DNA of 37,945 nucleotides. Origin: Solobacterium sp. (GTDB lineage Bacteria > Bacillota_I > Bacilli_A > Erysipelotrichales > Erysipelotrichaceae). The position numbers and the translations under genes are program-made. Shown one piece after another: positions 13,198 to 37,473 of this stretch. Below the pieces are notes generated by a model, which worked only from the letters and a program-made list of their open reading frames with translations, ran no database searches and was not told the DNA's origin. Numbering within the stretch: position 1 is the stretch's first letter; every line of letters starts with the position of its first letter. The stretch is taken from NCBI GenBank assembly GCA_017469355.1, contig JAFUGM010000085.1:1-37945 (forward strand), written 5' to 3'.

Positions 13198-13282
13198 AAA
13201 CCCTACTAATGGCAGGATTAATGCGGCGATGGTACTGACGATAAAGTTGTAAAAACTGTGTTTGGTTCTCGTAACGGTACTC

Positions 13283-14233: not shown

Positions 14234-14260
14234 AACAAAAACACCTCCGAAAACAACGTT

Positions 14261-14266
14261 ATTATA
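14261..14266 (-). promoter_or_regulatory. Internal extended -10 box in the polysaccharide locus
   Basis: TGATATAAT on the minus strand, 27 nt before the ATG at 14233, in the 60-bp gap after the acyltransferase gene. No good -35 is seen. It could give a second transcript for GT2, flippase and lipoprotein. Confidence 0.5.
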
Positions 14267-14293
14267 TCATTTCGTCATCGCATTATCCTTCTG

Positions 14294-15310: not shown

Positions 15311-15327
15311 ACAAGGTTTCGATCCAC

Positions 15328-17921: not shown

Positions 17922-17932
17922 ATTCCTGTCTC

Positions 17933-18646: not shown

Positions 18647-18722
18647 AAAACGACCTCTAACTTTCCTTCAGTGTATCATTGCCTGTCACAGAGTGACAAA
18701 CCCGGCAGCCGGTTCAACCGCA

Positions 18723-21067: not shown

Positions 21068-21078
21068 GATCGCCTCCG

Positions 21079-22053
21079 TTACAGATTGTCCTTCGAAATC
21101 ATATGAAACAGCCAGGAGAACAGACCGAGATTCCAGTCATAGACCATGGAAAAATAACGGTTCTTCATTCCCCCAAGTGATTTGAGATAGGGATTGTCAT
21201 GCCAGGAAGGGAACTCTTCATTCAGCAGATCCCATCCCATCCGGATCGTCGTTCTGCGGTCAATCGGATCCTTGATCTTCGCACTGCGCAGGAAACTGTT
21301 TCCCAGAAATGCCTTAATATGAATATATTCCAGGGCATCATGATAAGAATCATAGGTTCCGTGATCCCGGTAATACTGCAGGATGATGCGGAAGACCTCG
21401 ATCATGTTTTTTACCTGATCATTATTATCATGGGTAATGGACTGTTCCTGCTGCACATAGCGGACATAAGCCTTTTCCGTAAATCCAATCTTAGTCAGAT
21501 GATAGGTCAGACAATACAGATAGCAGTTATCTTCATACCGGTAGCCCGCAGGAAACCGAATGTCCAGAGAGCGAATGAATGAGGTTTTATAAAGCTTATT
21601 CCAGAGAACCGCAAACAGATTTACCATCATATCCTGCCCACAGGCATACGGCCCTTCCTTCTGTAACCGTTCCCCTTTGGAATTCTTCCAGTAGAAATCT
21701 GATACCACCAGTTCAAGATCATCCTTCTTTGCAAGGTCAAGCATCTCTTCAAACATGGATGGATCGGTATAATCATCGCTGTCAAGAAACCCGAAATACG
21801 TTCCGTTCACCTTGGATACCCCGAAATTCCTCGTCTCCGCAATTCCTTCGTTTTCCTTGGAATATAACTTCATATCCACATCCGGATGTGCGGCCTTCCA
21901 AGCTTCCAGTACCTGCAGGGTCGAGTCCGTACTGCCATCATTAATAACAATTAACTCCAGATCCTTTAGGGTCTGCGCTGCCAGCGAATCAAGTGTTTTT
22001 TCTACCGTAAAGGCACAGTTATAACATGGGACAATGACAGATACTTCAGGCAT
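21079..22053 (-). CDS. Glycosyltransferase family 2
   Basis: A 324-aa GT2 enzyme with EVSVIVPCYNCAFTVEKTL, VINDGSTDSTLQ, KENEGIAETRNFG and the metal-binding DSDD in FGFLDSDDYTDPSMF. The C-terminal half carries AVLWNKLYKTSFI and FPAGYRYEDN, the layout of the sibling GT2 genes in this locus. Its ATG lies within the last codons of the polymerase gene (8-nt overlap), so translation is coupled. Donor and acceptor cannot be assigned. Confidence 0.92.
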   Translation of the reverse strand: MPEVSVIVPCYNCAFTVEKTLDSLAAQTLKDLELIVINDGSTDSTLQVLEAWKAAHPDVDMKLYSKENEGIAETRNFGVSKVNGTYFGFLDSDDYTDPSMFEEMLDLAKKDDLELVVSDFYWKNSKGERLQKEGPYACGQDMMVNLFAVLWNKLYKTSFIRSLDIRFPAGYRYEDNCYLYCLTYHLTKIGFTEKAYVRYVQQEQSITHDNNDQVKNMIEVFRIILQYYRDHGTYDSYHDALEYIHIKAFLGNSFLRSAKIKDPIDRRTTIRMGWDLLNEEFPSWHDNPYLKSLGGMKNRYFSMVYDWNLGLFSWLFHMISKDNL

Positions 22054-23614
22054 GTCTGGCCTCCTCTACACGATTTAAAAGAATCGCGGTAATAAAGGCA
22101 GTAAAGACCGTTGTCACAAACTGGTCAAGATAATGACCGGATAACCAGGCTCCGCCAAATCCACAGCCAAGTGCGAAGATCAGGCAGAGGTTCTCCAGTG
22201 TCCATAACTGTTTCCGATAACGGATAAACATGATCAACCCATAGAACATGATTCCAATCCATGGCAGTAACAGGATCACTTCTCCCGCATATCCAAGCGT
22301 ATAGATCTGCTGGACAAAGTCCTTTTCCAGAACGATGGATCCATTCATGAAAGTGCTGTATCCCATCCCAAGAATCTTTTCCGGTGAGGTCAGGTTTTCA
22401 TATTTATAGTTAAAGAAGATCGTTTCAATCTGCCGCCCGCTGACCCGGTCAAATACCGGAATGTCATAGCATACATGAAACCAGAACCAGGGATCATGTT
22501 GGTAGGAATAATACTCGGTATAGTACATGGAAGGTACCGACTGAATATATCTGGCATTGATGCCATAGGTTTCAAACGCATAGACGTAGAAGTTGATCCA
22601 CTCTTCGCTTCCCGGAACAAGATCCTCCGCCTGCTTCAGATCATCGGCCGCAAACTGGATGGCCCCATTATTCAAAAGCGCCACATCATTCTTCGCATCT
22701 ACCCGCTGATTCTGTACAGCAGGCGTCCAGTTCAATATTGCGCCAAATACTGCCGCGGCGAGAAGTAAGGATACCAGTGGTTTTCCTTCAATGCGGCGAT
22801 GTTTCAGAAGCAGCCCATCAAACAGATATAATCCTGCCACTAACACCGGCACCACAACTGCTCCATACGTCGCCACCCGTGTAGACAGCATCTGCATCGC
22901 CAAGCCCTGTACTCCCGCCAGCACAAGAATCCGTTTCTTCTTTGTGGTATCTGTCTCACTGAGATAGCAGTAATACACTAATGGCAATAACATGAACAAC
23001 AGAATTCCAATGGTATTGCCTTCATTGAAGAAGAACTTGGATGCCAATGTTCTGGGGTGATACCAGTCATAGACCCCGGAAAACCAGGAGAAGAAATTCC
23101 CAACCGTATCGCCATAATAGGTAGACCGTGCGAACACATACATATCTCCGATTACGATCGGGATACTGATGATCGCAGAGCTCAGAAGTATCATGCGCTT
23201 CAGTTCTGTTTCATCAAAATGTTCATGATAACAAAGGTAGATCACCGCATACGGAAGGCAGAGCGTTAGTACATAGGTCAGTTCCTGGAACGCACTGAAA
23301 TAGAAGTTGTCTGTCAGAAACAACCGCTCCACCAATGCGTCTGCAAGGCGGCAGTGAAGAATAAAGTAGACAAGGAATATCACGCCATAGACTGCAGCGA
23401 TCACAAAGGTGCGCGGTTTCTTCTTTTCCCTCAGAAAAAATGACCACAGCACCAGAAACGGAAGCACAAGAAAACGGATCACAGTGGAGAATCTTGGAAG
23501 ACCCAGGGCATCCAGCTGTTCAAAGAACAGATAATCCATGTCTATGATCGGCTGAATCAATACCAGCACAAAGATCAGAACATGAAGATGTGTTTCACTG
23601 AAAATCCGTTTCAT
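22046..23614 (-). CDS. Wzy-like polysaccharide polymerase / O-antigen ligase family membrane protein
   Basis: A 522-aa membrane protein with about 11-12 predicted helices and one large extracytoplasmic loop (about 300-440, Tyr-rich, including HDPWFWFHVCYDIP). This topology fits the Wzy / O-antigen ligase superfamily. The stretch FNEGNTIGILLFMLLPL and QMLSTRVATYGA before the loop resembles the conserved part of the Gram-positive members. It would join lipid-linked repeats outside the membrane after Wzx export. The ribosome site is poor (AAGAAAA). Assignment is by topology and context, since Wzy sequences diverge strongly. Confidence 0.75.
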   Translation of the reverse strand: MKRIFSETHLHVLIFVLVLIQPIIDMDYLFFEQLDALGLPRFSTVIRFLVLPFLVLWSFFLREKKKPRTFVIAAVYGVIFLVYFILHCRLADALVERLFLTDNFYFSAFQELTYVLTLCLPYAVIYLCYHEHFDETELKRMILLSSAIISIPIVIGDMYVFARSTYYGDTVGNFFSWFSGVYDWYHPRTLASKFFFNEGNTIGILLFMLLPLVYYCYLSETDTTKKKRILVLAGVQGLAMQMLSTRVATYGAVVVPVLVAGLYLFDGLLLKHRRIEGKPLVSLLLAAAVFGAILNWTPAVQNQRVDAKNDVALLNNGAIQFAADDLKQAEDLVPGSEEWINFYVYAFETYGINARYIQSVPSMYYTEYYSYQHDPWFWFHVCYDIPVFDRVSGRQIETIFFNYKYENLTSPEKILGMGYSTFMNGSIVLEKDFVQQIYTLGYAGEVILLLPWIGIMFYGLIMFIRYRKQLWTLENLCLIFALGCGFGGAWLSGHYLDQFVTTVFTAFITAILLNRVEEARHA

Positions 23615-23626
23615 AATTTTCTTATT

Positions 23627-25915
23627 TTACTGCATAAAGCCTTTGTAAAAAAGAGGAATGGTTTGCGTATCAAATGCGTCCTGTAAACGCTCTATTAATT
23701 CCTCCCGTGACACTGGCGCAATTGCCATGAAGGCAGAAATCGCCTCTTCCTGCGTGTCATCCGGACTTTCCATAATATTTTCAAGGATGTCCTTGAATTG
23801 CCTGATAAAGTGCGGATAGTGCGTCAGATAATATTCTCCCGCAGATCGATCGTTCCGCAGTAATTCTGCCGCACCCCAGGATAATGCGAGAAACTCAACA
23901 ATCTGCTGACCTTTAAGTTCTTCTGACAGTTCCCGTCGGATCAATGAAGAAATCAGACCGCCGATAATCTTGTTCGCCTTCGGATCATTCATTGCGTCCA
24001 CTGCTTCCAGAGCTTCATAAGACATATCAATCAGCCGATAATCTTCCGCTAAGATACGATTGTGATCCATAAAAGCTATTAACGCCCGGATATCATCAAG
24101 TGCCCATTCCGACTCGATTGCCGCATTCACCACATGTTCCATTTCATCTACGAATTGATATTCTTCCGTACTGGAAAGCTCATGCGACTTCAGTAACTTC
24201 ATCAGCTCCTCTAAATCCTCATGGAATCGTCTGCGATCGGAATTGTAGATGTCTTCCCGCAGTTCCATCGCCCGCAGCGCATATACATAACTTCGATCCC
24301 ATTCTCTGAGATCACTAAATGATTCCAGGAACTTCCGTTCTTCTTCCAACATCTTACGGATCATAGTTTCATGACCCTGTTCATGGAGAATCTGGGAGTA
24401 AATCATGGCATATACCTGTGCTTCTTGAGCTACCGGGCCATGCGCCTTCAGGAGGCGCTCTGCCATCGCAAGTTTTCCATTCGTTATAAGAGACGCCGCC
24501 TGGGCAAGCAATGCATAAACCGAGTTAGGGAAATCCCGGCTCAGGCTCTTTGCGAACCGGCTGGCGCGGTTTCCCCTTCGGCTTGTGCAAAGGGAGATCG
24601 TATAGACATATCGAACAATGCCATCGATCCGATCGTCATATTCATCCAGAAGATCGGAAGCCAGTGCCTGCGCTTCATCCATCTCCGAATCATAAAATCT
24701 CCGTAAAAGTAATCCAAGGTCAGACTGGATCTCCTCCGGATAGCCCTTCACAAACTCCTGCAGCCAGAGATATGGCGAACTGGTAAAGGTCAGCGCATCA
24801 CAGCGTCGCTCCAGATAGCGTTTTGCGACTGTCTGGTTCGCAATTCCGCACTGATTCACAAGGTAATCCAGAATCTCCTGTTCACTGCGCTTGGGATCTT
24901 CAACTAACCGCAGCACGTCGCCCTGATATTCCTCCCAAAAAGCAGGATAGCGTTCCTGGATCAGATCAAACAGATGCGGATTTTTCTGATATTCCTGTAA
25001 TACTCCCCAGCACAAGGGAAGATAGTCTCGTTCTGTATAATTCTCTTCCTCGCTCGCCGCCGTAGTAAGATCCATAAATGTCAAGAGAACATGGGAAATC
25101 TCAGGGTCTTCGTTTGCCATATAGCTTTCTATACTGCTGTAACAGCTGTTCAAAGAACCCGCATACTCCTGCATACGGCCAGAATCGCTAAGCGCATCTG
25201 CCAGCTTCTTGAAATATGGTCTTGCCCAAGGGGTCGGATTGATGATTTCGGAGAACTCAGGAATCTTATATGCCAGCATATAATCTTCTATTTTCTCTGG
25301 TTCAAACGTATTCAGATAGGTTGTTACCCGGTCGATATCCTCCGCAAGAAGATCCTCACGCTCCATGAAAATATCCTGTTCAAAACAGGACAGGAACAGT
25401 TTCATGATGGGAAGCCGATACGGTACAACTTCCTGTTTGATGAGAGTTGTCACCGCTTCCAGTCCTTCGATATAAGCCGCATGCCATGCGTCCTCTCCTG
25501 GGATGACCGATCTTATATCTGCCAGCGTATTGTAATAATCTACTGCGATCTGCGGAACCACTTCCACCTGCTTCAGCTCCTGTTCCGCAAGTTCATAACA
25601 ATCTTCCTCAACATAAATCTTGGCGCGGGTAAGATGAACACGGGAATTCACATAAGGAATCGACTGAATCTCGTTCAGATTCTTCTCTGCTGCATCCGGC
25701 TCTCCCAGTTCAAGTAACGTCTCCGCGATCATCCAACGAACCATGCCGGTATCCTGATCATCATAGTGCGAAAGAAGCTGATGACAGCCCTCCAGCACCT
25801 CAATATGATTCTCAAAAAAGAAGTTGGTCAGGATAGTCCCATATTCCTGTTGATACTCTTGCGGTACAGCCGCAATTTCTTCATTTAAATCAATATCCAG
25901 TCGTTCCTCTATCAT
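23627..25915 (-). CDS. Large helical-repeat (TPR-like) protein, function unknown
   Basis: A 762-aa soluble, acidic, almost wholly helical protein with no signal peptide or membrane helix. Segments such as MIAETLLELGEPDAAEKNLNEI, LTRAKIYVEEDCYELAEQEL and ALLAQAASLITNGKLAMAERLL have the spacing of degenerate TPR or HAT repeats, mainly in residues 60-130 and 430-540. No catalytic motif is seen. It is embedded between a GT4 gene (ATGA overlap) and the Wzy-like gene (12 bp), so it belongs to the polysaccharide operon. It may be a scaffold for the glycosyltransferases or a length or assembly controller; this is inference only. Confidence 0.7.
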   Translation of the reverse strand: MIEERLDIDLNEEIAAVPQEYQQEYGTILTNFFFENHIEVLEGCHQLLSHYDDQDTGMVRWMIAETLLELGEPDAAEKNLNEIQSIPYVNSRVHLTRAKIYVEEDCYELAEQELKQVEVVPQIAVDYYNTLADIRSVIPGEDAWHAAYIEGLEAVTTLIKQEVVPYRLPIMKLFLSCFEQDIFMEREDLLAEDIDRVTTYLNTFEPEKIEDYMLAYKIPEFSEIINPTPWARPYFKKLADALSDSGRMQEYAGSLNSCYSSIESYMANEDPEISHVLLTFMDLTTAASEEENYTERDYLPLCWGVLQEYQKNPHLFDLIQERYPAFWEEYQGDVLRLVEDPKRSEQEILDYLVNQCGIANQTVAKRYLERRCDALTFTSSPYLWLQEFVKGYPEEIQSDLGLLLRRFYDSEMDEAQALASDLLDEYDDRIDGIVRYVYTISLCTSRRGNRASRFAKSLSRDFPNSVYALLAQAASLITNGKLAMAERLLKAHGPVAQEAQVYAMIYSQILHEQGHETMIRKMLEEERKFLESFSDLREWDRSYVYALRAMELREDIYNSDRRRFHEDLEELMKLLKSHELSSTEEYQFVDEMEHVVNAAIESEWALDDIRALIAFMDHNRILAEDYRLIDMSYEALEAVDAMNDPKANKIIGGLISSLIRRELSEELKGQQIVEFLALSWGAAELLRNDRSAGEYYLTHYPHFIRQFKDILENIMESPDDTQEEAISAFMAIAPVSREELIERLQDAFDTQTIPLFYKGFMQ

Positions 25916-27075
25916 CCTTCAAACGCCTCCATGAACTTGTTTAACAATGCCTCGTTGGGGTATTCATATCCTTTCAGGAAGTACTTCATGTCATGAAGAT
26001 CCCCAATGGAACATAACGCTGTCTTAAGCCCTTCGGTCAACGCCTCCTGACTGTTTTCTACCACCCAGCCCTGTTCCGGGGCAGTGATCTGCTCTCTGGC
26101 ACCGCTGACCTCCGTTGCCAGCACCGGTGTTCCGACAATTAAACTCTCTGAGATAACTGTTGCGAATCCTTCATACAGACTGCTCGACACATAAAGATCC
26201 GCCTTCGCCATATCCGCATAGGGATTCTGACGGTATCCAAGAAAGACCACATTGTTCATGTTCATCTCTTTCACCATGGTGCGAAGCTTGTCTTCTTCCT
26301 CCCCACCCCCAATCAGATACAGTGTGTGGTGATTTCCTGAGAGATAGGTTTCATGACTTGCGATCAGAAGCCGATCAATACTTTTCTGGGGATGAAACCG
26401 GGCAACGGTAATGATATTGGGGCCATCCGTCCCATTGATTTCACTCCCATCATCTTCCTTCAGCGCTTCTTTAATCCGCTCGGTATCCATCAGATTGTGA
26501 ATGGTAATCCCATTTGACACATGAAATACCGTTTCATAGGCAATCAATGCCTTCTCACTATCAGCGATATTCAGATCAATATGTTTTAATGCCTCCTGCA
26601 CAAGCGGCATATGATTGCGGGAATAGTTACAGACACTGTAGTCGGTCAGTACCCAGTTGATTTTCCGTTTACTGTCGCCATAGGCGGTAAAGATGGTACA
26701 GAATCCTTCCTTCGCCGCAATTTCAACATCATACTGCTTAGTCAGAATCTTCTTACGCTCAGAGCGAATTTTATTTTTAATCAATCCGGTCTTCATATAG
26801 GTAAGCAGACGAAGTTTCCCAGCCAGATCTTTGAATTTCCGCTGTTGCCAAAGGAGTTCGAGTGACTGATCAACTTCACGAAAAAAAGCACTGCCTTCAA
26901 TGACATGAACCCGGGAAGGAATTTCCTTCAGCAGCATTCCTTCCTTATGCAGAATCAGAAGATCAATTTCATATTTTTCTTCCGGAAGCGCAGCCATCAG
27001 TGTATTCAGTACTCTGGCCACCCCTCCCATCTGCATTTCATCATTTACGAATAATATCTGTTTCTTATCGGTCAT
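25912..27075 (-). CDS. Glycosyltransferase family 4
   Basis: A 387-aa GT-B enzyme. The N-terminal ILFVNDEMQMGGVARVLNTL is the usual acceptor-domain start of GT4 proteins. The donor domain shows NIITVARFHPQKSIDRL, LYLIGGGEEEDKLR, VVFLGYRQNPYADMAKADL and SLYEGFATVISESLIVGTPV with the intact E-x7-E motif, then GAREQI. It likely adds a sugar to the growing lipid-linked unit. It overlaps the upstream GT2 gene by 11 nt and the TPR-like gene by ATGA. Confidence 0.92.
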   Translation of the reverse strand: MTDKKQILFVNDEMQMGGVARVLNTLMAALPEEKYEIDLLILHKEGMLLKEIPSRVHVIEGSAFFREVDQSLELLWQQRKFKDLAGKLRLLTYMKTGLIKNKIRSERKKILTKQYDVEIAAKEGFCTIFTAYGDSKRKINWVLTDYSVCNYSRNHMPLVQEALKHIDLNIADSEKALIAYETVFHVSNGITIHNLMDTERIKEALKEDDGSEINGTDGPNIITVARFHPQKSIDRLLIASHETYLSGNHHTLYLIGGGEEEDKLRTMVKEMNMNNVVFLGYRQNPYADMAKADLYVSSSLYEGFATVISESLIVGTPVLATEVSGAREQITAPEQGWVVENSQEALTEGLKTALCSIGDLHDMKYFLKGYEYPNEALLNKFMEAFEG

Positions 27076-28027
27076 ATATCTTCAGCACCATCCCGTAATA
27101 CTTGTTAGACAACAGCCGGTAAATCAGTTTCTTCCTGAATCCCGCATTACGCACGAAGGAACTGTTCATATAATCCGGAACCCGCTGAACCAGCTGATTC
27201 ATGTTTTCCTTCAACAGTTCTTCCCGCTTCTTTGTATGTTCCATATCCTTGATCTTCAGGGTTGTAATATCGAGCCCGAAGATCAGATACATCTGTTCAA
27301 TTTCCCTCTGTACCGCCGCTTCATTTCCGTGGTTAGTCACATACTCCTTCACCCGGTCAATCGCATCATAGATATGAAATACTCTGCGGTCCGTACTGTG
27401 CTGAATACTTCCAGAACGCTGGCGATAGAAATAAAGCGGTTCATCCACTTTCGTCACAAGCGAGCTTCGATAAATCTGAATCGGTACGGTCGCAAGATCT
27501 TCATACAGTTTCCCCACAGGAAACTGAACTTCCTGGAACAGTTCTGTTTTATATAGTTTATTGCATGCGCTGTTATTAATACGAATGAGATCCGGCTGCT
27601 CATGTATAGAAGACTGTTGAAAGACTCCTCCGGAGGAAAACTCCCGATGTCCATCCTCATAGACATATTCCATATCAGAAACAGAAATATCCGCACCGGA
27701 TTCCAACCCCTTTAACAGCAGCTCCACATACTTCGGGCTAATCGTATCATCTCCGTCAATAAAACAGATATACTTTCCGTTCGCGTGTAAAATCCCATAG
27801 TTTCGCGCATCACTTAAACCACCATTTGGCTTATCGAGCAGTATTACCCGTAAATCCTTGTGTACATAGTCTTCAAGAATCGCCCGGCTTCCGTCCGTAC
27901 TGCCGTCATTTACAGCCAGAATCTCAAGGGATTCATAAGTCTGCGCAAGAATACTGTCCAGACATTCCCTGAGGAACTGCTCGACGTTATAAACCGGAAT
28001 TACCACTGTCACAACTGGCTGATTCAT
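27065..28027 (-). CDS. Glycosyltransferase family 2 (first gene of the polysaccharide operon)
   Basis: A 320-aa GT2 enzyme with VTVVIPVYNVEQFLRECLDS, VNDGSTDGSRAIL, KPNGGLSDARNYG and the metal-binding DGDD (FIDGDDTISPKYV), then NSACNKLYKTELF and FPVGKLYEDLAT. It heads the long minus-strand locus. The ATG at 28027 has no ribosome site; an extended -10 (TGCTATACT) ends 9 nt before it, so the mRNA should start only about 2 nt before or at the ATG. The next upstream gene is the helicase (stop 28151). Confidence 0.92.
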   Translation of the reverse strand: MNQPVVTVVIPVYNVEQFLRECLDSILAQTYESLEILAVNDGSTDGSRAILEDYVHKDLRVILLDKPNGGLSDARNYGILHANGKYICFIDGDDTISPKYVELLLKGLESGADISVSDMEYVYEDGHREFSSGGVFQQSSIHEQPDLIRINNSACNKLYKTELFQEVQFPVGKLYEDLATVPIQIYRSSLVTKVDEPLYFYRQRSGSIQHSTDRRVFHIYDAIDRVKEYVTNHGNEAAVQREIEQMYLIFGLDITTLKIKDMEHTKKREELLKENMNQLVQRVPDYMNSSFVRNAGFRKKLIYRLLSNKYYGMVLKIYDR

Positions 28028-28091: not shown

Positions 28092-28122
28092 GTTGAAGTG
28101 AAATAGTGAACTTCACCTCAAC
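28092..28122. repeat. Imperfect inverted repeat between helicase and polysaccharide operon
   Basis: GTTGAAGTGAA (28092-28102) pairs with TTCACCTCAAC (28112-28122) with one mismatch and a 9-nt loop. There is no T-run on either side, so it is a poor terminator. It lies 47 bp upstream of the operon's -10 and after the helicase stop, and could be an operator. Confidence 0.45.
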
Positions 28123-28150: not shown

Positions 28151-29857
28151 TCACAGGTCATAATCTTTCCGTATATCAGTGAATACAGATTCTACTGATT
28201 TTGTTCTTCCTGCTTTCATATCCTCATATTCCTTATCCAATTCCGCATCCATTTCCACATCAGAAAGTTGGCTGGCATCCACCAGACCTGATCCAGGCAG
28301 TTTCATCTCATCCTGATGTTCTTGCCTTATCGCATAAGGACGTGAAGCTGTTTCTGACATCCACTTCATCACCAGCCAGTAATTCTGCTCTGATTTTGTT
28401 TTTGCACTTTGAATGCGAGTTGTGTAGCAGTTTGACCCTAACCGCCAATCTGCTCGTGTAAGCCCTTCTTCAATACAGCGAATCACTTCGGTTCGAAGCT
28501 GTGGATCAAATGAATGCTGTTCCAGCATGTGATATGCGACATCCTCATAGATCGGACAGTCAAATGTATTATCCAAGGAATGATATTTCATGGATATGGT
28601 TTCGGTTTCACTTAGCGTATCCAACAGATAGTATGGTGTATCCACCATAGCTCCTGTGTGAAGATAATAAAGAACCGCATTCTTATTCGTTCCATGACGA
28701 AGTATTCGCCCCAGACGCTGGATGCGCTGTCTTGTGCTGGAGGAAGAAGAAACCACAATCCCCGCAGACACCTCAGGGACATTCAATCCTTCATCCAGTG
28801 CCCTGCAGGTCACTAAGATACGATCATCTCCACTTCGCATGCGTTCCAAATAATATTTCTTCATTTCGTCGGAAAGCTCCGAGTGATAATGACCGACTCT
28901 TGTCGTCACTTCCGCTTTGATACGTGAGTAAAGAAACTCTGCCTGAGAAATCCGTTCGCAGAACAGGATAACCTGTTCCTCCGGTTTTAGTCGCTTCACC
29001 AGTTCTACCGCACAGCGAACCCTGTTTTCTGCCAGAAGAACGATTTTCTTCCGCATACGAACAAACTGGCAGAACAAAGCTTCCATCCCTTCTGGATCTT
29101 CCGTTTCCATAGAAGACAGAAAGTGAAACAGCTGTTCCACATTCATTACGCTGATCTCGGGATATGCCTTGCGCAGTTCATTATAGAGCTTGCGGATTCT
29201 CTGATCCAAGGAGGCATAATTCCGCAATTCTTCCGGAGATAATTCAACGCTTACCTGAATCAATGAAAATGGGGAAACTGTGCCATCTTCAGCGGCCTGC
29301 TTTGTATCATAGGTATAAATTAGGTCACCAAGAGAAGGCACAAGCACTTCATTGAAATTGGAATGATATGGGGTAGCCGACATACCTAAGGAATGATACA
29401 TACGTTCATCAAAGTCGGGATGATTCAAGAATGAAAAGATCAGTCGGTTAGATTCGCCGGTATAACGATGACATTCATCGCAGATCAGGAACTGATGGAT
29501 ACCACGTTTCATATTTTGAATCATATGGCGGGAAATGGTGTATCTGGCAGAATTAATCACATAAATCATGAACAGGCGGTCTGGATCCTGCTTCAGTTCT
29601 CCCTGCCACATGCCAATATCATGAATATCCAGATTCGGAAATATCCTCAGGATTTCCTTTTTCCATTGCGATGCCAGGGCACAGGTGGGCACTACAATGC
29701 GAATCTGAATCCGATCCGCATAGTTCTCCATCAAAGAAGCAGCCGCATAGAGGGCAAACCACGTTTTCCCCGCTCCGGTAGCCACATGAATGATTCCTTT
29801 GGTATGGTTCGCTTTCCAGATGTCCATGCATTGATTCTGCCAGGGATATAATTCCAT
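28151..29857 (-). CDS. SF2 DEAD/DEAH-type helicase (XPB/UvrB-like), putative defence module subunit
   Basis: The start is set at 29857 (MELYPWQNQ) so that the Q-motif-like LYPWQ opens the protein; 568 aa. All SF2 motifs are visible: I ATGAGKT (26-32), Ia VVPTCALASQW (55-65), II DECH (127-130), III GMSATP (158-163), IV ILFCERIS, V ILVTCRALDEGLNVPEVSAG, VI QRIQRLGRILR. The order and the 'DECH' form fit the XPB/Rad25-like translocases found in phage defence systems. The C-terminal 170 residues are family-specific. It is divergent from, and 74 bp away from, three genes encoding a coiled-coil protein and two P-loop ATPases, and probably works with them. An extended -10 abuts the ATG and no ribosome site exists, suggesting a leaderless mRNA. 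Confidence 0.88.
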   Translation of the reverse strand: MELYPWQNQCMDIWKANHTKGIIHVATGAGKTWFALYAAASLMENYADRIQIRIVVPTCALASQWKKEILRIFPNLDIHDIGMWQGELKQDPDRLFMIYVINSARYTISRHMIQNMKRGIHQFLICDECHRYTGESNRLIFSFLNHPDFDERMYHSLGMSATPYHSNFNEVLVPSLGDLIYTYDTKQAAEDGTVSPFSLIQVSVELSPEELRNYASLDQRIRKLYNELRKAYPEISVMNVEQLFHFLSSMETEDPEGMEALFCQFVRMRKKIVLLAENRVRCAVELVKRLKPEEQVILFCERISQAEFLYSRIKAEVTTRVGHYHSELSDEMKKYYLERMRSGDDRILVTCRALDEGLNVPEVSAGIVVSSSSSTRQRIQRLGRILRHGTNKNAVLYYLHTGAMVDTPYYLLDTLSETETISMKYHSLDNTFDCPIYEDVAYHMLEQHSFDPQLRTEVIRCIEEGLTRADWRLGSNCYTTRIQSAKTKSEQNYWLVMKWMSETASRPYAIRQEHQDEMKLPGSGLVDASQLSDVEMDAELDKEYEDMKAGRTKSVESVFTDIRKDYDL

Positions 29858-29863
29858 GGCGAA

Positions 29864-29872
29864 AGTATAGCA
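29864..29872 (-). promoter_or_regulatory. Extended -10 promoter of the helicase gene, predicted leaderless
   Basis: TGCTATACT on the minus strand; TATACT ends only 6 nt before the ATG at 29857. Transcription would start at or next to the A of ATG. Confidence 0.65.
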
Positions 29873-29900
29873 CAGCAATGCAGGAACAACATTTTCCCGA

Positions 29901-29906
29901 TATAAT
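29901..29906 (+). promoter_or_regulatory. -10 box of the three-gene ATPase operon
   Basis: TATAAT on the plus strand, 25 nt before the ATG at 29932, with AAGGGG (ribosome site) between. It is only 28 bp from the helicase -10, so the two divergent promoters share their upstream DNA and are likely co-controlled. Confidence 0.6.
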
Positions 29907-29931
29907 ATGTCCAGTACAAGGGGAAAATATT

Positions 29932-30702
29932 ATGAACTATGAAAATCTGTATGAAGAACTGACCACTACTGAAAAAGACCTTTCATCCGCCATCAAAGAC
30001 ATCCAGAAGTACTCAAAGCAGATCATAAAGAGTACGCAGACTGGAGATCTCAAAGACATTGATAAGGCGCTTAAATCTCTCAAATCTGCACTTGATGCGA
30101 CGAGGGACTCCTATAAGGAAATCAAATCCTCTGTGGATGGATTCGATCGGTTTGCTTATATCAATGACGGACAATTTTCTGATCAGATGCTGGAAGAATG
30201 CAAACTCCAGGGAGTTGATGCCAAAGATCTGGGTGGACTCACCTACGAACTGTTTCCAAACAAGGTTTCCATTAACAGTGAAACATTGGATATTACAGTA
30301 GATAAGAAGAAATACTCCTACCTTCGTCCCAAGGCATTGGTAGAAACCATCAAAGCCGGGCAGGAAAAACTCAAGAAGGAACCATTTAATGCGGATCGGT
30401 TTATCAATGAACTCGCTGATGCGTATGATACCGTGATTCTCCGCGGTAAGAAAAAGTCACCTTCCGCAGAAGTTAAGCTTTCTGATGTCTATCTTCGTAT
30501 GGCACCTACCGCCAGAGCCAAAAAGGAATATGACAAGCAGACGTTCGCGTTTGACCTTGCGAGATTATATGCCTCTGATGTACGTTCCACAAAAGATGGA
30601 CGCGCATTAAATCTCAGTACCAGCCGTGATAATAAGAATGCGATTCGGTTCCTTGATCAAAATGGTCACGAACAGTATTACGCATTGATCAGTTTCATCT
30701 AA
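29932..30702 (+). CDS. Coiled-coil protein of unknown family, first subunit of the ATPase operon
   Basis: Start 29932 (MNYENLYEE) is chosen because AAGGGG lies 8 nt upstream; the longer frame start at 29878 lies before the promoter. The 256-aa product has an N-terminal coiled coil (about 5-70, heptad-like: LSSAIKDIQKYSKQI, ALKSLKSALDATRDSY). A compact alpha/beta domain follows (about 75-256), with notable segments YELFPNKVSIN, KKKYSYLRPKALVETIK, FINELADAYDTVIL, FAFDLARLY and the C-terminal NAIRFLDQNGHEQYYALISF. I recognise no nuclease, TerB or kleisin motif. The position before two ATPases suggests an adaptor or sensor subunit. Confidence 0.8.
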   Translation: MNYENLYEELTTTEKDLSSAIKDIQKYSKQIIKSTQTGDLKDIDKALKSLKSALDATRDSYKEIKSSVDGFDRFAYINDGQFSDQMLEECKLQGVDAKDLGGLTYELFPNKVSINSETLDITVDKKKYSYLRPKALVETIKAGQEKLKKEPFNADRFINELADAYDTVILRGKKKSPSAEVKLSDVYLRMAPTARAKKEYDKQTFAFDLARLYASDVRSTKDGRALNLSTSRDNKNAIRFLDQNGHEQYYALISFI

Positions 30703-30723
30703 TCAGAAAGGAGTTTACTTCAT

Positions 30724-31875
30724 ATGATTCAATCCTCTTCCGGAGATGGGTTTCTTCTTGAATTTCTGGATGATATGTACCTGAAGGATTTTATTGCCAA
30801 AGGCGGCAGTAAGATCAAATTTGTTACCGGTCGCCCAGGTTCCGGCAAAACATATTTCCAGAACAAGCTTTCTGAAGCCGCGAAACAAGACGGCTATGTT
30901 GTTGTGAGTCTTTCAGCGAAACAGGTATGGCTGAATGATTTTAAGGAAGTATATCTGGCAGTTTTATCGAAATTGAACTTCGATTCTCTGATTCAGGACT
31001 GTGCTAAGGAGCTGATCCGGAAACTGGATTATGATCCAGATTCCATTCCTGAAGGTCAGCGATTCATTGACTATCTGGCTTCTCATGATGAAGCGAACAT
31101 TCTCACTAAAAGGGCGCTTCGGGAAGAACTGTCCCGTCAATTCCTTCAGAATCCCCTGCTGGACAACAATTTCGCTTCCATCTGCGCACAGTTGACCGCA
31201 GACATTCTCGGGCATCCAACCATGGAGGACGGAGATAAAGATATTCTTTACCGCTGGCTGAATGCGGATAAGACCGTGAAGCTGACAGAACTGAGAATGC
31301 TGGGTCTTGCGCCGGTGCGCATCACTAAGTTCAATGCCCGGCATATGTTGCGATCACTGGCTGAAATGATCCGTATTGGCGGAAATGCCGGATTGATTGT
31401 ATTGGTGGATGATCTGGATATTCTGCAGGATAACAGTGGATTGGAAGAACTTCATTACACCAAAATGAAGCGTGACGATACATATGAGTCCATTCGTCAA
31501 CTGATTGATGATATCGACACCATGCGCAGCCTCATGTTTGTGTTCGCCTTCGACCGCGCACTCATGGATAATGAGCGGGAAGGTCTGAAATCCTATCAGG
31601 CACTATGGATGCGAATTCAGAATGAAGTATATGCGGAACGAATGAACCGGTTCTCCGATATTCTTGATCTGGATCGTCTTGCGAACCAGGTCTATGACTC
31701 AGACTATATCCTCGAAATGTCTCTGCGCTTTGCAGAGGAAGCAGAGCGCACTTCTCGAAATGCAATGATTCTGGACGATGAAGCCATCCGCCAAATCATT
31801 GAAAAAGCAAAATTCGGATCCACTGGTCTTCCAGAACTGATCCGCAAAGCTACACTGGAAGGAGAATCAAAATGA
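30724..31875 (+). CDS. P-loop ATPase 1 of the putative defence module (BREX-like ATP-binding protein)
   Basis: A 383-aa STAND/AAA-like P-loop protein. Walker A is GRPGSGKT (36-43) after KFVTG; Walker B is LIVLVDDLDIL (about 224-234). SLMFVFAFDRALM resembles a sensor-1 strand. The region between holds long helices (EELSRQFLQNPLLDNN) typical of proteins labelled 'BREX system ATP-binding' or 'ATP-binding protein' of unknown role. It is probably the partner of the second ATPase, with which it overlaps by ATGA, and may form a mixed ring or loader with it. AAAGGAG lies 10 nt before the ATG. ATPase activity is predicted, the substrate is unknown. Confidence 0.85.
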   Translation: MIQSSSGDGFLLEFLDDMYLKDFIAKGGSKIKFVTGRPGSGKTYFQNKLSEAAKQDGYVVVSLSAKQVWLNDFKEVYLAVLSKLNFDSLIQDCAKELIRKLDYDPDSIPEGQRFIDYLASHDEANILTKRALREELSRQFLQNPLLDNNFASICAQLTADILGHPTMEDGDKDILYRWLNADKTVKLTELRMLGLAPVRITKFNARHMLRSLAEMIRIGGNAGLIVLVDDLDILQDNSGLEELHYTKMKRDDTYESIRQLIDDIDTMRSLMFVFAFDRALMDNEREGLKSYQALWMRIQNEVYAERMNRFSDILDLDRLANQVYDSDYILEMSLRFAEEAERTSRNAMILDDEAIRQIIEKAKFGSTGLPELIRKATLEGESK

Positions 31876-33068
31876 GCCAGTTTGAATCCAGACGTGTCAT
31901 CGAAGCACTCCGTTCAGGAATTCCCTCACGTATCGTAGGCCAATACTTTACTGGAACACGGGAAAAGCTCCTCTCCTCCATTAATGATAATATTCAATCC
32001 GCAACCGAAGGATCTTCTTCCGGAATGATTATTACCGGGAAATACGGAGAAGGAAAAACCCATCTTCTCAATACCGTATTTTCTGCTGCAGGAAATAAAA
32101 ATCTGGTTGTTTCCATTCTTCCACTCAGTAAGGAGACTCCCTTCGATAAGCTTCCAGTGATCTATCAGAAACTTATGGCGAATACTTACCTTCCCAATCG
32201 GGAACAGCCAGGGTTCTTGCATGAGTTTGAAGACAAGATGCAGGATAGCCGATTTGCGGCAGATCTGATCCTGTTTGCGTCTACTTCCCTTTCCTGCAAT
32301 AAGCTTTCCTTTCTTCTGAAAAACCACACGAAAGAAAAAGATGCGGAAGAAATCCATAAACTGCAGACAGATCTTCTGGGTGATTTCATTTCTAACCCAG
32401 AACTGAAGAAGCGCTATCGTCTGCTGTTTAAAGAAACTCTTAAGTTCAATGAAAACTTTGCAAAAACGAAGCACATTCTCGATTACTTTGAGTTCATGAG
32501 CTATCTGTTTTTGAAATTAGGGTACGATGGATGGGTAATTCTCTTTGATGAAGCGGAATTGATTGGCAGAATGAGTAAAAACCCCCGCCTGAAGGCATAT
32601 CAGAATATGAATTTATTCCTGAATCCGGCCAAGACACTACACTCAACCTTTACATTATTCGCATTTACTTCTTCCTACACTGAAGATGTGATTGAAAGCA
32701 AACACGATTTCGAAAATCTGGAAGCTGTTTATCCAGAGGGTAATCCAGCAATCAAGTCTTCCTTGAATGCAATCCTAAAGGCGCCACAGCTTCAGCCACT
32801 GAATAACCAGGAAATCCGCAAAGTGATTGATACAATCATTCAGATTTATGCGGATGCATATAACTGGACTCCGGAAGTTTCCTCCGAAGTCATTCAGAAA
32901 CAGACAGACAGTTCCGGATTTCTACTTCGCACAAAGCTCAGAACCTGTATAGAAATACTGGATCAGCTTTATCAGTATGGGGAATACGGAACGATCCATA
33001 CCGGTCAATTATCAGAAGAAGCATATGAGGAAGATATCCCAGATCTGAATCAGGAATCCGTGGAATAA
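31872..33068 (+). CDS. P-loop ATPase 2, DUF2791/BrxD-like
   Basis: A 398-aa protein. The N-terminus (RRVIEALRSGIPSRIVGQYF) and Walker A GKYGEGKT (56-63) with Walker B WVILFDEAELIGRM (about 221-234) match the DUF2791 family, which includes BrxD of BREX. LFAFTSSYTEDVIE is the probable sensor-1 strand. In BREX, BrxD belongs to a multi-gene phage-exclusion system; here PglZ, BrxC, methyltransferase and Lon are absent. Together with ATPase 1, the coiled-coil protein and the divergent helicase it forms a smaller module. The acidic C-terminus ends just before a bidirectional terminator. Confidence 0.87.
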   Translation: MSQFESRRVIEALRSGIPSRIVGQYFTGTREKLLSSINDNIQSATEGSSSGMIITGKYGEGKTHLLNTVFSAAGNKNLVVSILPLSKETPFDKLPVIYQKLMANTYLPNREQPGFLHEFEDKMQDSRFAADLILFASTSLSCNKLSFLLKNHTKEKDAEEIHKLQTDLLGDFISNPELKKRYRLLFKETLKFNENFAKTKHILDYFEFMSYLFLKLGYDGWVILFDEAELIGRMSKNPRLKAYQNMNLFLNPAKTLHSTFTLFAFTSSYTEDVIESKHDFENLEAVYPEGNPAIKSSLNAILKAPQLQPLNNQEIRKVIDTIIQIYADAYNWTPEVSSEVIQKQTDSSGFLLRTKLRTCIEILDQLYQYGEYGTIHTGQLSEEAYEEDIPDLNQESVE

Positions 33069-33116
33069 GCAATTCCTTTCCAAAATAGACAACAACTCAT
33101 AATTGTAATGAATCGC

Positions 33117-33169
33117 AAAAACAGGATATCTGCAGTGATAGGAACTGAAGATATCCTGTCTTTTGTTTT
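33117..33169. terminator. Bidirectional rho-independent terminator
   Basis: ACAGGATATCT (33121-33131) pairs perfectly with AGATATCCTGT (33149-33159); CTTTTGTTTT follows on the plus strand and TTTTTGC on the minus strand. It separates the ATPase operon from the convergent sbcDC-DUF1294 operon. Confidence 0.9.
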
Positions 33170-33230: not shown

Positions 33231-33494
33231 CTAACTTCTTCCCCCTGATAATGCGAAAAGGATTACCCCAGCTTCTACCAGTGCCAGGAAAGGAACACCT
33301 ACCGCAAACAGGGGCTTTCTGGTCTTATGGTGGAAGAAGCGCATCCCAAGATATGCCCCGGCACCACCTCCAAGTACTGCGCAAAGAATGAGCACCGATT
33401 CCGGAATTCTCCACATTCCCTTACGGGCACGCTGTTTATCCACCCCGTAAAGAACAAACGCAAACAGATTCACTACTAATAGGATCTTAAGCAC
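33231..33494 (-). CDS. DUF1294 family small membrane protein
   Basis: An 87-aa protein with a GTG start at 33494 preceded by GGTGGAG at 8 nt. The pattern FAFVLYGVDKQRARKGMWRIPE, then LGGGAGAYLGMRFFHHKTRK and a last membrane helix, is diagnostic of DUF1294, a family of small bacterial membrane proteins of unknown function. The start overlaps the sbcC stop by 8 nt, so it is translated with sbcC, though no link to recombination is known to me. A terminator follows. Confidence 0.9.
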   Translation of the reverse strand: MLKILLVVNLFAFVLYGVDKQRARKGMWRIPESVLILCAVLGGGAGAYLGMRFFHHKTRKPLFAVGVPFLALVEAGVILFALSGGRS

Positions 33495-36291
33495 AGCGGA
33501 TCTCCACCCGACTTCCCGACAGTGTTCCGTCTTCCTTCAGTTGTTTGGAGACAAGAATCTGATTGGGGATCTGTTCTTTCAGCTCTTCCACATGAGAGAT
33601 AATTCCCACAAGCCGATGGCTTCCTGACAGACGTTCCAGTACTCGAATCGCTGTACGTATCGTATCAGTATCCAATGTGCCGAAGCCTTCATCGACAAAC
33701 ATTGCGTCAATTTCAATGCCAGCCTGACTCTGCACTTCATCACTGAGTCCAAGCGCCAGCGCAAGCGATGCCAGGAATGACTCTCCGCCAGAAAGGGAAC
33801 GGACGCTCCGTTCTTTACCGGTATACTTATCCGTCACATTCAGTTCCAATGCCTCATGAACTTCTGTATTCCGATTTCTCGAGCGAATCAATGCGTACTG
33901 CCCATCCGACAGAAAGTGAAGCCGTTGATTTGCACGATCAAGAATACGATCAAAATAGGCAGTCTGTACATATTCTTCCAGGGTGAGTTTTTCCTTGTCT
34001 TCCAGATTGGAATCTGCCGCATCTGCCAGCTTTTCTATCCAGGATTTCCGCAGTACTGCCGCATCCAGTTCCTTCTGGGTTCGCATCAATGAATTGATTG
34101 CGGCTTTATTAATTCCCATTCGAACATTGATCTGATCCCGTTCCTCTCGAAGATCTCTGAGGTGAACCCGAAGTGTTTCAAGATTCATTCGATCTTCTAA
34201 CATCTGTTTTTCAAGGGCTGTCTGATCACTGGTTCCGCTTTCTTCCAGCGTACGGAATACTTCATCCCGACCTGCTAATGCGGTCATCAATTCCTTTTCC
34301 GCTTCATCCAATGTTTCTTTTTTCGCCTTCAGTTTCTTTTCATACACACTGATTTCATGTTCAAGACGCAGTGCTTCCTGACGGGCACCCTTCTCTTCAT
34401 TGAAATGCAGTGTCTCCCTCAGCTTCGAGGCCGCTTCCTGTTCATAAGATGCTTTATGACGGAGGGTTGCGGTACGCTGATCCTTTTCCGTAATTTCCCG
34501 GGCAAGATGTTCCAGGCGGGAACGTATCTGAGGAATGGACTCCGTCAGCTCATTCAGACGATCCTTCCGGCCCCGATACAATTCAAGATCCACTTCTCCT
34601 TTATCTTTGGCAATCTGAAGATGATGGAGGTGGGCATGAATCTGGTTCAGAGATTCTTCTGATACTTCTTCCATTTCCGCTGCTTTAAAGGCTTCCTCCG
34701 CTTCTTTGAGACAAAGGTCAATCCGTTCTTTTGCCGCATGAGCATGACGAGCACTCAACTCTGCGGTATCACGTGCATCATTCATGGAAGTCTCTGCTTC
34801 ATGAATCCGCTCTTCACTTGGGGTTCCAATGGATTTATATGCCGGATGCGGGTGTTCCAATGAGCCGCATACTGGACATGGTCTGCCCTCGATTAACTGC
34901 TCCGCAAGGATTCCTGCCTGACCCGCAAAGTAGGCACCCATAATCGCATGATATTCTTCCGAACGCTGCTCATATTCTGCAGCAGTGTCCTTTAACTGCT
35001 CGATGGATTCTTCGTAATGTGTCTGAGCGCCAATCAAAGCGTTATAACGCTCTACGGCCTGATTACATACCGCCATCACCCGCTGAATCTCACGAATATG
35101 TTCTTCCGCAAGAACGAAATTGACATCTGATCCCTGTAAGGACTGATGTTCTTCCTCTTCCTGCAGCAACTGATCTTTCAGCTGTACGGACTCTTTTGTG
35201 ACTTCAGAGATTTCCTCTTCCAGACGATTGGCTTCCGCCAAGGATTCGGATGCGATCTGTTCCATCCGGGTTAATTCCATATATTGAGGAATGACCCGGT
35301 TCAATGCGCTGAGAGATTCTCGGAGTTCATGAATTCTGGAAAGCTGTTCTGGCGTTTCAAGTGCCCCAACCGCTTCTCTTGCGGCATTGCGGGCACGAGT
35401 CAATTCAGGAAGACGGGCACTTGCCTTATTGAGGTGTTCAAAAATCTGAAGCTGCTGCTCCCCTTTGGCAAGAGAATTGCTTAACCGCGTTGCCTGACCT
35501 TCTGCGTCTTTGATCTGTTCTTTTCGTTTTTCCAGGGTATAACTGTCTTCCACAACAATCTGTTCGGCGAGCGCGATCCCAGCTCGGGTGCTCTGTTCAA
35601 GCTGTTCCTTACGGGAACGTAAAGGACTCTCCTTTGCACAGATTAACGAATCCAGTGTCCGTTCGATATCGTGATTGTGACTGTTGATCTCATTGGTCAG
35701 GCGAACTTCTTCTTCCCGCAGTTCCTTCTGTACTCTTTGATAGGGATCGGTATGAAATAACTGCCGGAAGATCTCATTCCGCCCAGAGGTATCCGCGACC
35801 AGAAGCTCCTGGAAGCGGCCCTGGGCAATCATAACAATCTGGGTAAACTGTTCCGCCGTAAGCCCAAGTAGTTCATGAATCTTATGATCGGTTTCTTCCA
35901 CACCTTCTAATACTGTTTCATCCGGCATTGTAAGTACTGCCCGCCCCTCATGACGGATCTGATGAAGAGTACCGTTGGGATTCATTCGTTCAAAGGTATA
36001 CTCTGGGCTACGTTCCACACGGAAAACCTGATTCTGAAATTCAAACTGCAGAGAAACACAGGTTTCCTGATCTTCATCCGCATACTGACTCCGCAACATT
36101 TCCGGACGGCGGGAGGAAGAACTCGTTTCTCCATAAAGCGCATAGACAATCGCATCAAACAGCGCGGTTTTTCCAGCACCGGTATCCCCCGCCACAAGAT
36201 AAAGACCATGGTCCCCCAACAGTGAAAAATCAATTGTGACTGGTTCGGAATACGAACCGAATGCGGATAATTCCAGTTTCAGCGGTCTCAT
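33487..36291 (-). CDS. sbcC: Nuclease SbcCD subunit C (Rad50-like ATPase)
   Basis: A 934-aa SMC-like ATPase. Walker A GDTGAGKT (about 35-42); long coiled coils interrupted at the middle by the zinc hook CPVCG (about 471-475), which dimerises the arms; ABC signature LSGGESFLASLALALGLS (about 831); Walker B and D-loop MFVDEGFGTLD (about 860-870). With SbcD it opens and trims DNA hairpins, palindromes and blocked ends. The ATG overlaps the sbcD stop (ATGA), with GGAGAAGAG as ribosome site. Length and all key residues look normal. Confidence 0.97.
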   Translation of the reverse strand: MRPLKLELSAFGSYSEPVTIDFSLLGDHGLYLVAGDTGAGKTALFDAIVYALYGETSSSSRRPEMLRSQYADEDQETCVSLQFEFQNQVFRVERSPEYTFERMNPNGTLHQIRHEGRAVLTMPDETVLEGVEETDHKIHELLGLTAEQFTQIVMIAQGRFQELLVADTSGRNEIFRQLFHTDPYQRVQKELREEEVRLTNEINSHNHDIERTLDSLICAKESPLRSRKEQLEQSTRAGIALAEQIVVEDSYTLEKRKEQIKDAEGQATRLSNSLAKGEQQLQIFEHLNKASARLPELTRARNAAREAVGALETPEQLSRIHELRESLSALNRVIPQYMELTRMEQIASESLAEANRLEEEISEVTKESVQLKDQLLQEEEEHQSLQGSDVNFVLAEEHIREIQRVMAVCNQAVERYNALIGAQTHYEESIEQLKDTAAEYEQRSEEYHAIMGAYFAGQAGILAEQLIEGRPCPVCGSLEHPHPAYKSIGTPSEERIHEAETSMNDARDTAELSARHAHAAKERIDLCLKEAEEAFKAAEMEEVSEESLNQIHAHLHHLQIAKDKGEVDLELYRGRKDRLNELTESIPQIRSRLEHLAREITEKDQRTATLRHKASYEQEAASKLRETLHFNEEKGARQEALRLEHEISVYEKKLKAKKETLDEAEKELMTALAGRDEVFRTLEESGTSDQTALEKQMLEDRMNLETLRVHLRDLREERDQINVRMGINKAAINSLMRTQKELDAAVLRKSWIEKLADAADSNLEDKEKLTLEEYVQTAYFDRILDRANQRLHFLSDGQYALIRSRNRNTEVHEALELNVTDKYTGKERSVRSLSGGESFLASLALALGLSDEVQSQAGIEIDAMFVDEGFGTLDTDTIRTAIRVLERLSGSHRLVGIISHVEELKEQIPNQILVSKQLKEDGTLSGSRVEIRCA

Positions 36292-37466
36292 TTCTCTTCT
36301 CCGAACGCTTTGGCGATAAGTTCATTCATATATTGTGACTGCACGAAGGAGAGCTTCTCCCCGGTGCGGTCCTCATAAAACTCCTGAAACAGTGCCTGCG
36401 GCGCTTTCAGGTTCAAAGTTCTCACTTCCGTCAACATGCCATCCTTGAGATCCACATGAATTTCCGTCTTTCCTCTCAATCGAACCCGTCCATCCGCATA
36501 GGAAACCCCCATCACATATGGATATTTTTCCTTCAGAGCATAGATCGCATCTGGAATTTCATCCGTTTCTTCAAGAATGATATTCACATAGGAGTCCCGA
36601 TACTGGTCGCACATCTCCTTACTGATCAGGTCATTAAATGTTCCGGATATCTGTAACATATCCTTTTCAGGTGTTAATGCGATAGTACTGATACGGAAGG
36701 TGCCCTTTTCTTCCAGCGTAAGCAAGGTAAAGGACTTCTCCATTCCGATTTCTGCGATGGAGTAATTCAATGGTGCTCCACTATAGCGGATTGTCTCGCT
36801 TCCTACTGCCTGAGCGGTATGAATATGTCCCAGTGCTACATAGTCATAGCCCTGAATTACTGACACATCCACAGCTTCCTTACTGAGGGAAAGGTAATCC
36901 TCCGGTCCCCCTTCAATTACCGTCACCCCTTCAAAATACTGGTGGGCAATTAATATATTTCGCTCTTCCAAGTCCAGCTTTGCCGTTGAAAGGGCATAGC
37001 GCATCGCATCAGTAAAGGTTTCTACAGGCGCATCTTCTTCTTTACGATAACGATTTATCATGGCTGGGGTTATATAAGGCAGACACCAGACATGAAGCGG
37101 TCCGTATCGATCCAGCATATCGATACATTCCATCGCTCCGTTCCATCGTCCGCATACATGAATATCCATCGCTTCAAGCAACCCTGCCCCATAATCGATC
37201 AGATCACCATTATCATGGGTTCCGGCAATCATGAAAACTTCAATATCTGCGGCACGAAGTGAGGTAAGAAATTCATTCAGAACTTCCATCGCCTCTGCTT
37301 CCGGAACTGAAGAATCATAAATATCCCCTGCCAGGATGACAGCGTCAACTTCTTTTTTTATTACCTTTTCAACGACCTGTTCCAAAACCTTCCGCTGATT
37401 TTCAATCATGGAATAGGAATGAACTTTTCGTCCCAGATGCAGGTCCGCAAGATGTGCAAACTTCAT
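36288..37466 (-). CDS. sbcD: Nuclease SbcCD subunit D (Mre11-like)
   Basis: A 392-aa metallophosphoesterase nuclease. The start is set at 37466 (MKFAHLADLHLG); the longer frame to 37511 would include the promoter. Metal-site motifs are in order: LADLHLG, LAGDIYD, AGTHDNGD, IAHQYFEG, VALGHIHTAQ. It pairs with SbcC to cut double-strand ends and hairpins; many bacteria use it against palindromes and replication blocks. TATAAT ends 7 nt before the ATG and no ribosome site exists, so the mRNA is predicted leaderless. First gene of sbcD-sbcC-DUF1294. Confidence 0.96.
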   Translation of the reverse strand: MKFAHLADLHLGRKVHSYSMIENQRKVLEQVVEKVIKKEVDAVILAGDIYDSSVPEAEAMEVLNEFLTSLRAADIEVFMIAGTHDNGDLIDYGAGLLEAMDIHVCGRWNGAMECIDMLDRYGPLHVWCLPYITPAMINRYRKEEDAPVETFTDAMRYALSTAKLDLEERNILIAHQYFEGVTVIEGGPEDYLSLSKEAVDVSVIQGYDYVALGHIHTAQAVGSETIRYSGAPLNYSIAEIGMEKSFTLLTLEEKGTFRISTIALTPEKDMLQISGTFNDLISKEMCDQYRDSYVNIILEETDEIPDAIYALKEKYPYVMGVSYADGRVRLRGKTEIHVDLKDGMLTEVRTLNLKAPQALFQEFYEDRTGEKLSFVQSQYMNELIAKAFGEEK

Positions 37467-37473
37467 GGCTTTT

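Follow-up and report, generated by a model that had tools for sequence, protein, structure and literature searches.

A probable phage defence of a new kind: an accessory block of an XPB-like helicase, a coiled-coil protein and two BrxC/D-type ATPases, whose three-gene core pairs with different DNA motors

A contig of Solobacterium sp. (GenBank assembly GCA_017469355.1, JAFUGM010000085.1, positions 1 to 37,945; the whole stretch is hereafter the window) carries a helicase gene facing away from three co-directional genes, which raises the question of whether the four genes form one system and, if so, of which kind. An original prediction, made from the letters of the sequence, considered them a candidate anti-phage or DNA-surveillance system composed of a helicase, a coiled-coil protein and two P-loop ATPases. 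The four open reading frames (ORFs) were recovered at the predicted place, with HEL divergent from CC-ATPA-ATPB (hereafter the trio) and with both sets of ATPase motifs confirmed:

28151-29857, minus strand: HEL, XPB-like superfamily 2 (SF2) helicase, 568 aa counted from its ATG
29932-30702, plus strand: CC, 256 aa, with a helical hairpin (residues 3-70) and an alpha/beta C-terminal domain (73-256)
30724-31875, plus strand: ATPA, 383 aa, BrxC/D-type (ORC/Cdc6-like) AAA+ ATPase with GRPGSGKT and VDDLD
31872-33068, plus strand: ATPB, 398 aa, BrxC/D-type AAA+ ATPase with GKYGEGKT and FDEAE

The reading favored here, with a probability of roughly 55%, is that of an accessory four-gene system in which an ORC/Cdc6-like loader of two ATPases and an adaptor would license a DNA motor on foreign DNA. 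Judging from the pairing of the trio with different motors and from its defence neighbours, the block probably represents a phage defence of a new kind.

The trio and HEL form one functional unit, because all four genes were kept in 69 of the 80 best relatives and the pairwise distances of the four proteins correlated with each other (Mantel r 0.86-0.94, 61 loci, with none of 2000 permutations attaining such values). Relatives were obtained by scanning 84,980 species genomes with ATPB, which returned 160, the best 80 being kept. They belonged to Lachnospiraceae, other Clostridia and spirochaetes, most of them at 50-55% identity to ATPB, and the window proteins were about 33-55% identical to those of independent close loci. 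HEL was usually divergent; in four loci (L025, L034, L082, L094) it pointed the same way as the trio, placed before or after it, and the linkage was preserved. In ten of the 11 incomplete relatives, the locus was truncated at the end of the contig or close to it. The sole real exception, L076 (3100-6069), retained ATPB and a partial ATPA, with neither CC nor HEL in the roughly 4 kb of sequence upstream, and is probably a decayed block. The survey of gene neighbourhoods that had been proposed as a check displayed neither a lack of co-occurrence nor a constant TerB gene: no TerB gene recurred among the relatives, and no TerB family was among the commonest families of the 133 nearest flanking proteins, so that the predicted unit without TerB was borne out. 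In a further observation, a protein of 575-700 aa, UvrD/HelD-like according to a family tally and by eye, directly followed HEL on the same strand in L032, L035, L037 and L040.

The trio constitutes the conserved core, with the XPB-like HEL as one replaceable motor option among several, because the trio remained constant while the fourth gene changed between loci. CC, ATPA and ATPB were contiguous, co-directional and in constant order in 35 readable divergent loci, as well as in the window and the close loci (L196, L197 and L205 were read by a scan without ORF selection). In ten divergent loci (L154, L193, L196, L197, L203, L204, L207, L208, L210, L212; Pfam BrxL_ATPase at 304 bits in L154), the gene directly after ATPB encoded BrxL, the MCM-like AAA+ ring of BREX (bacteriophage exclusion); no other BREX genes were seen around these ten with the few queries used, and the window has no BrxL. 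A BrxD-like ATPase and a BrxHI/SngC-like helicase preceded CC in five loci (L111, L201, L205, L206, L209), a BrxHI-like helicase followed the trio in L110 and L111, a SNF2 helicase followed it in L157, L160 and L202, and a superfamily 1 helicase of Upf1/DNA2 type (1027 aa) lay upstream of it in L195. A helix-turn-helix protein was found upstream of the trio in three loci, L151 among them, and in several divergent loci the trio stood by itself.

Two of these versions were carried by plasmids. The only plasmid match to ATPB (24% identity) was on Desulfomonile tiedjei pDESTI.01 (L110), in a row hypothetical-ATPase-ATPase-helicase adjoining AbiEi/AbiEii, and its hypothetical protein matched the CC profile with an hhalign E-value of 3.5e-5 and a hidden Markov model score of 26.4 bits, the best of 687 unrelated flank proteins reaching 6.1 bits. 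On a conjugative plasmid of Aulosira laxa (L111, 1-14395), a related row, hypothetical-ATPase-ATPase-BrxHI-like helicase, came directly after a type 2 BREX run PglX-PglZ-BrxD-BrxHI; this second set, on a cyanobacterial plasmid, is annotated merely as hypothetical proteins and a helicase. In L158 (624-10509), the trio was followed by an unknown protein of 437 aa, then by HSP70 and another two large proteins, of 545 and 643 aa, likewise unknown. A weak match, L162 (E 3e-5), was dropped as it carries no trio.

Both ATPases belong to the BrxC_BrxD family of Pfam (PF10923; ATPA 98.8 bits, ATPB 102 bits, cutoff 22.2), and they were its only matches in the host genome. The BrxD-like assignment made beforehand for ATPB therefore stood, but not its restriction to ATPB. 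The ORC-like ATPase type of BREX is thus present twice, far below the NCBIfam BrxD cutoff. In the ATPase tree, ATPA and ATPB each formed a clade apart from SngB of the Shango system; ATPB grouped with the second of the ATPases in the plasmid-borne versions (support 99/95, long branches), while the placement of ATPA was unsettled. Walker A and B motifs of ATPB were intact in every readable relative examined, and Walker A of ATPA was lost in six divergent loci (L149, L150, L152, L153, L157, L160).

The prediction of an XPB-like helicase was supported by both fold and profile. The AlphaFold2 model of HEL (predicted local distance difference test, pLDDT, 86.4) had as its best Protein Data Bank (PDB) match the XPB-Bax1-DNA structure 6p4f_C (Z 24.6, root-mean-square deviation 2.3 over 364 residues), and the HEL profile retrieved RAD25/XPB from the PDB at E 3.4e-44. 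HEL matched ResIII and Helicase_C in Pfam, and its motifs I (TGAGKT, T27-T32), II (DECH, 127-130) and VI (QRIQRLGRILR) were invariant across a 55-sequence alignment. In the proposed scheme, the HEL motor would be an XPB-like double-strand translocase.

The block shares several traits with Shango, which consists of a TerB protein (SngA), an ATPase (SngB) and a helicase (SngC): a BrxC/D-type ATPase beside an SF2 helicase, a small operon and a patchy distribution. A true Shango was present in a congener (L105; SngA, SngB and SngC at 187, 619 and 920 bits, verified against PADLOC and Pfam), and ATPA and ATPB matched the SngB and BrxD profiles of PADLOC at 56-73 bits, as might be expected if the block were a Shango or BREX derivative that had lost its TerB or BREX genes. 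Such an origin is most improbable and was largely refuted by the co-occurrence, the TerB-free set of four genes being the norm in 69 loci. Loss of TerB in this block was accordingly rejected: neither TerB_N nor TerB_C matched any of the four proteins, and CC had no detectable kinship to SngA (hhalign probability 0.1). Shango has one ATPase where the block has two, in clades separate from SngB; it has a TerB protein where the block has CC; and its helicase is of Lhr/BrxHI type and about 750 aa long, whereas the XPB-like HEL reached only 31.8 bits with the SngC profile against 920 for true SngC. With the SngB profile, ATPA scored 58 bits, ATPB 58.5 bits and true SngB 619 bits. Shango-like operons (TerB protein, BrxD-type ATPase, helicase) were observed in congeners and a sister family (L105-L109), those of L106-L109 being recognized by layout and ATPase match.

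Other known systems were also only partly similar. BrxD and BrxHI of type 2 BREX form a dyad resembling the block in that an ORC/Cdc6-type ATPase lies beside a helicase, and it is such a dyad that the trio follows in the five loci named above. The window, however, is without PglX, PglZ, BrxC and PglW, and has two divergent ATPases and a different helicase. As predicted, the BREX hallmarks PglZ, PglX/BrxX methyltransferase and BrxC were missing, with no full-length match by the four proteins and none recognizable in the window ORFs by reading. The best PADLOC relative of HEL was PbeA, a helicase linked to phosphorothioation (200 bits), with only the helicase part of that profile (251-623) covered. 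PbeABCD is defined by an HKD nuclease fused to a SF2 helicase together with a CxC ABC ATPase and DndE (PMC10853773), whereas HEL has no N-terminal HKD nuclease part, no matches to PbeB-D were obtained and the block contains no dnd gene; NCBIfam TIGR04095 (dnd_restrict_1) gave 145 bits with HEL, below its cutoff of 600. Archaeal XPB-Bax1, a repair pair, was nearest to HEL in fold and sequence, but the block has no Bax1 nuclease and HEL starts directly at the helicase core. The block is therefore not Shango, BREX or PbeABCD; by analogy, it may work like the BREX/Shango class, with an ORC-like ATPase and a helicase, in a new composition and around a three-gene core that was absent from the libraries and papers searched.

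CC homologues occurred in close and in divergent loci, and no family above cutoff was found for CC in Pfam or NCBIfam (2026), nothing in PADLOC (2023), nothing coherent in a Pfam search over 67 members and a single weak match in PHROGs (E 0.005). Its AlphaFold2 model (pLDDT 90.3) displayed a long helical hairpin, then a C-terminal domain of beta strands, helices and four strands. This order of helices followed by strands suggests a DNA-binding adaptor, and the last part of the modelled chain would be a winged-helix-like DNA-binding unit, for which no fold match was found. It could instead be supposed that CC itself is the effector, a nuclease or toxin that the ATPases keep in check and that is set free by way of HEL, as in an abortive infection of Hachiman type. 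CC is the sole protein of the four without an assigned fold, and Hachiman gives a precedent, pairing a sensor helicase with a nuclease formerly listed as a protein of unknown function (PMC12278908). This role for CC is nonetheless quite improbable, in view of the DNA-binding look of the model and of the residues that the wide family conserves (E106, P133, F157, Y165, Y187, Y200, D208, R211), which make no evident active site and do not look catalytic. The pair D124/K126, considered as a nuclease motif, was dropped, being conserved in the close family but not in the wide one.

The block is accessory, patchy and horizontally spread, in agreement with the mobile unit that had been predicted. None of the 35 congeners searched had a close ATPB, their matches being at 25-30% identity and including the verified Shango operon. 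CC was found in one of 392 genomes of the host's phylum (again one of 295 with a wider profile), in 9 of 299 genomes of one Lachnospiraceae family and in 3 of 296 of the spirochaete phylum, the counts over 392, 299 and 296 genomes each including the genome on which the sample was centred. In the phylum of Lachnospiraceae, widened profiles recovered 18 genomes out of 398, the spurious L162 among them, and in one class within that phylum 42 out of 154.

Defence as the purpose of the block was favored by the neighbours of its trio relatives. L151 adjoined a type 3 BREX operon (BrxC 2092 bits, PglXI 835 bits), L150 and L149 lay beside CRISPR-Cas types I-B and I-D, L152 beside a cas3 gene, L110 beside AbiE and L111 beside type 2 BREX; together with BrxL, these associations speak in part for the predicted anti-phage role, while the HEL-type blocks themselves were rarely in defence islands. 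Several results weigh against the favored reading. Flanks of HEL-type blocks were mostly metabolic and regulatory, and the few defence matches in the 133 flanking proteins did not support residence in defence islands. The neighbour counts of the divergent loci are raw, with no matched random-gene baseline. No HEL-type block was found in the phage, viral-contig and plasmid collections, nor any nuclease or toxin domain in the four proteins. For CC, PDB sequence matches were at chance level with both the close alignment and the wide C-terminal one, and Foldseek returned nothing at E<=0.001 in the PDB and BFVD, a second structural search covering the coiled-coil hairpin only.

Part of this evidence would fit a module for DNA repair or replication stress, in which the ORC-like pair would load the XPB-like translocase at stalled forks or at lesions in the host's DNA, as an accessory repair pathway instead of a defence. 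The nearest fold to HEL is that of XPB, a repair helicase, the HEL-type flanks are not defence islands, and the phage collections searched did not contain the block. In L202 (1940-13563), Rad50-like (1171 aa) and SbcD-like (425 aa, by eye) genes lie directly upstream of the trio and co-directional with it, a possible tie to DNA-end processing in one lineage. A repair role is a serious rival but the less likely one, since the distribution is very patchy and horizontally spread, and since in relatives the core has BrxL and BrxHI-like helicases as partners and adjoins BREX and CRISPR. The sbcDC genes next to the block, which the original prediction took as a context of DNA-end processing, gave no support for it: DUF1294 protein, SbcC and SbcD (window 33231-37469) form an ordinary operon, a genus-level feature also found in congeners that lack the block, and neither sbcC nor sbcD lay near any of the 80 relatives. 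The adjacency is coincidental on both grounds.

The signals around and between the genes were as follows:

29858-29931, no strand: divergent intergenic region between HEL and CC, 74 bp, read from the sequence
33115-33166: bidirectional intrinsic-terminator-like hairpin between ATPB and the convergent DUF1294/sbcCD operon
28092-28122: hairpin 3' of HEL (z -3.5), without a clear T tract

The bidirectional terminator predicted to bound the block was recovered on the ATPB side, where the hairpin folds at -25.3 kcal/mol on the plus and -23.7 kcal/mol on the minus strand (z -5.7 and -7.1) with T tracts in both directions, but its counterpart on the HEL side was less clear. Two promoters 28 bp apart had been claimed; a consensus scan of the 74 bp between the start codons of HEL and CC returned no promoter pair. 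The start of ATPB overlaps the stop of ATPA by 4 bp (ATGA), and the mechanical ORF call of HEL begins at a TTG upstream of its ATG. Elsewhere in the window, positions 11743-28027 read as a cluster of polysaccharide/teichoic-acid type (glycosyltransferases, LicD-like, cytidylyltransferase-like, flippase, polymerase-like protein and thiamine pyrophosphate enzyme), and the ORF at 5146-6429 resembles, by eye, AlbA/Schlafen-type ATP-binding regulators.

The scheme of how the four proteins could act together draws on BREX. Loading of BrxHI has been proposed for BrxD, an ATPase of the ORC/Cdc6 class (PMC12839542), and BrxL resembles MCM and might, its authors suggest, be loaded by further BREX factors (PMC10164562); no test of either proposal was found in the literature searched. 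BREX and Shango both contain ORC-like ATPases. The pattern of the trio points to a loader, because two ATPases and an adaptor stay constant across motors as different as unrelated helicases and an MCM-like ring, and because the nucleotide site of one ATPase is lost in some loci. A loading or licensing complex is favored on this account. ATPA and ATPB would form an ORC/Cdc6-like heteromeric AAA+ assembly, with ATPB as the obligate ATP switch and ATPA as a partner subunit able to become a pseudo-ATPase. CC would dock on this assembly and touch DNA via its C-terminal domain, and the trio would load or license the motor on target DNA, an XPB-like translocase here and a BrxHI-like helicase, a SNF2 helicase or the MCM-like ring BrxL in relatives. 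The likely purpose would be to recognize and block replicating foreign DNA, of phages or mobile elements. Within this picture, the gene set with its linkage and co-variation, the exchange of motors, the state of the motifs and the patchy horizontal spread are observations, and the complex, its loading activity, the DNA contact of CC and the defence role are inferences.

The trio had no entry in Pfam, PADLOC or NCBIfam and no description in the literature searched, subscription papers and preprints being mostly outside its coverage, and the family may merit its own name. Tentatively, and at somewhat less than even odds, such trios could be undescribed, widespread ORC-like loader modules that drive interchangeable motors against foreign DNA, a bacterial counterpart of ORC/Cdc6-MCM loading. 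The block offers a compact four-gene system in which the loader idea could be tested. If true, the reading would add an uncatalogued system of gut Lachnospiraceae, with other versions in one class, where 42 of the 154 genomes sampled carry them.

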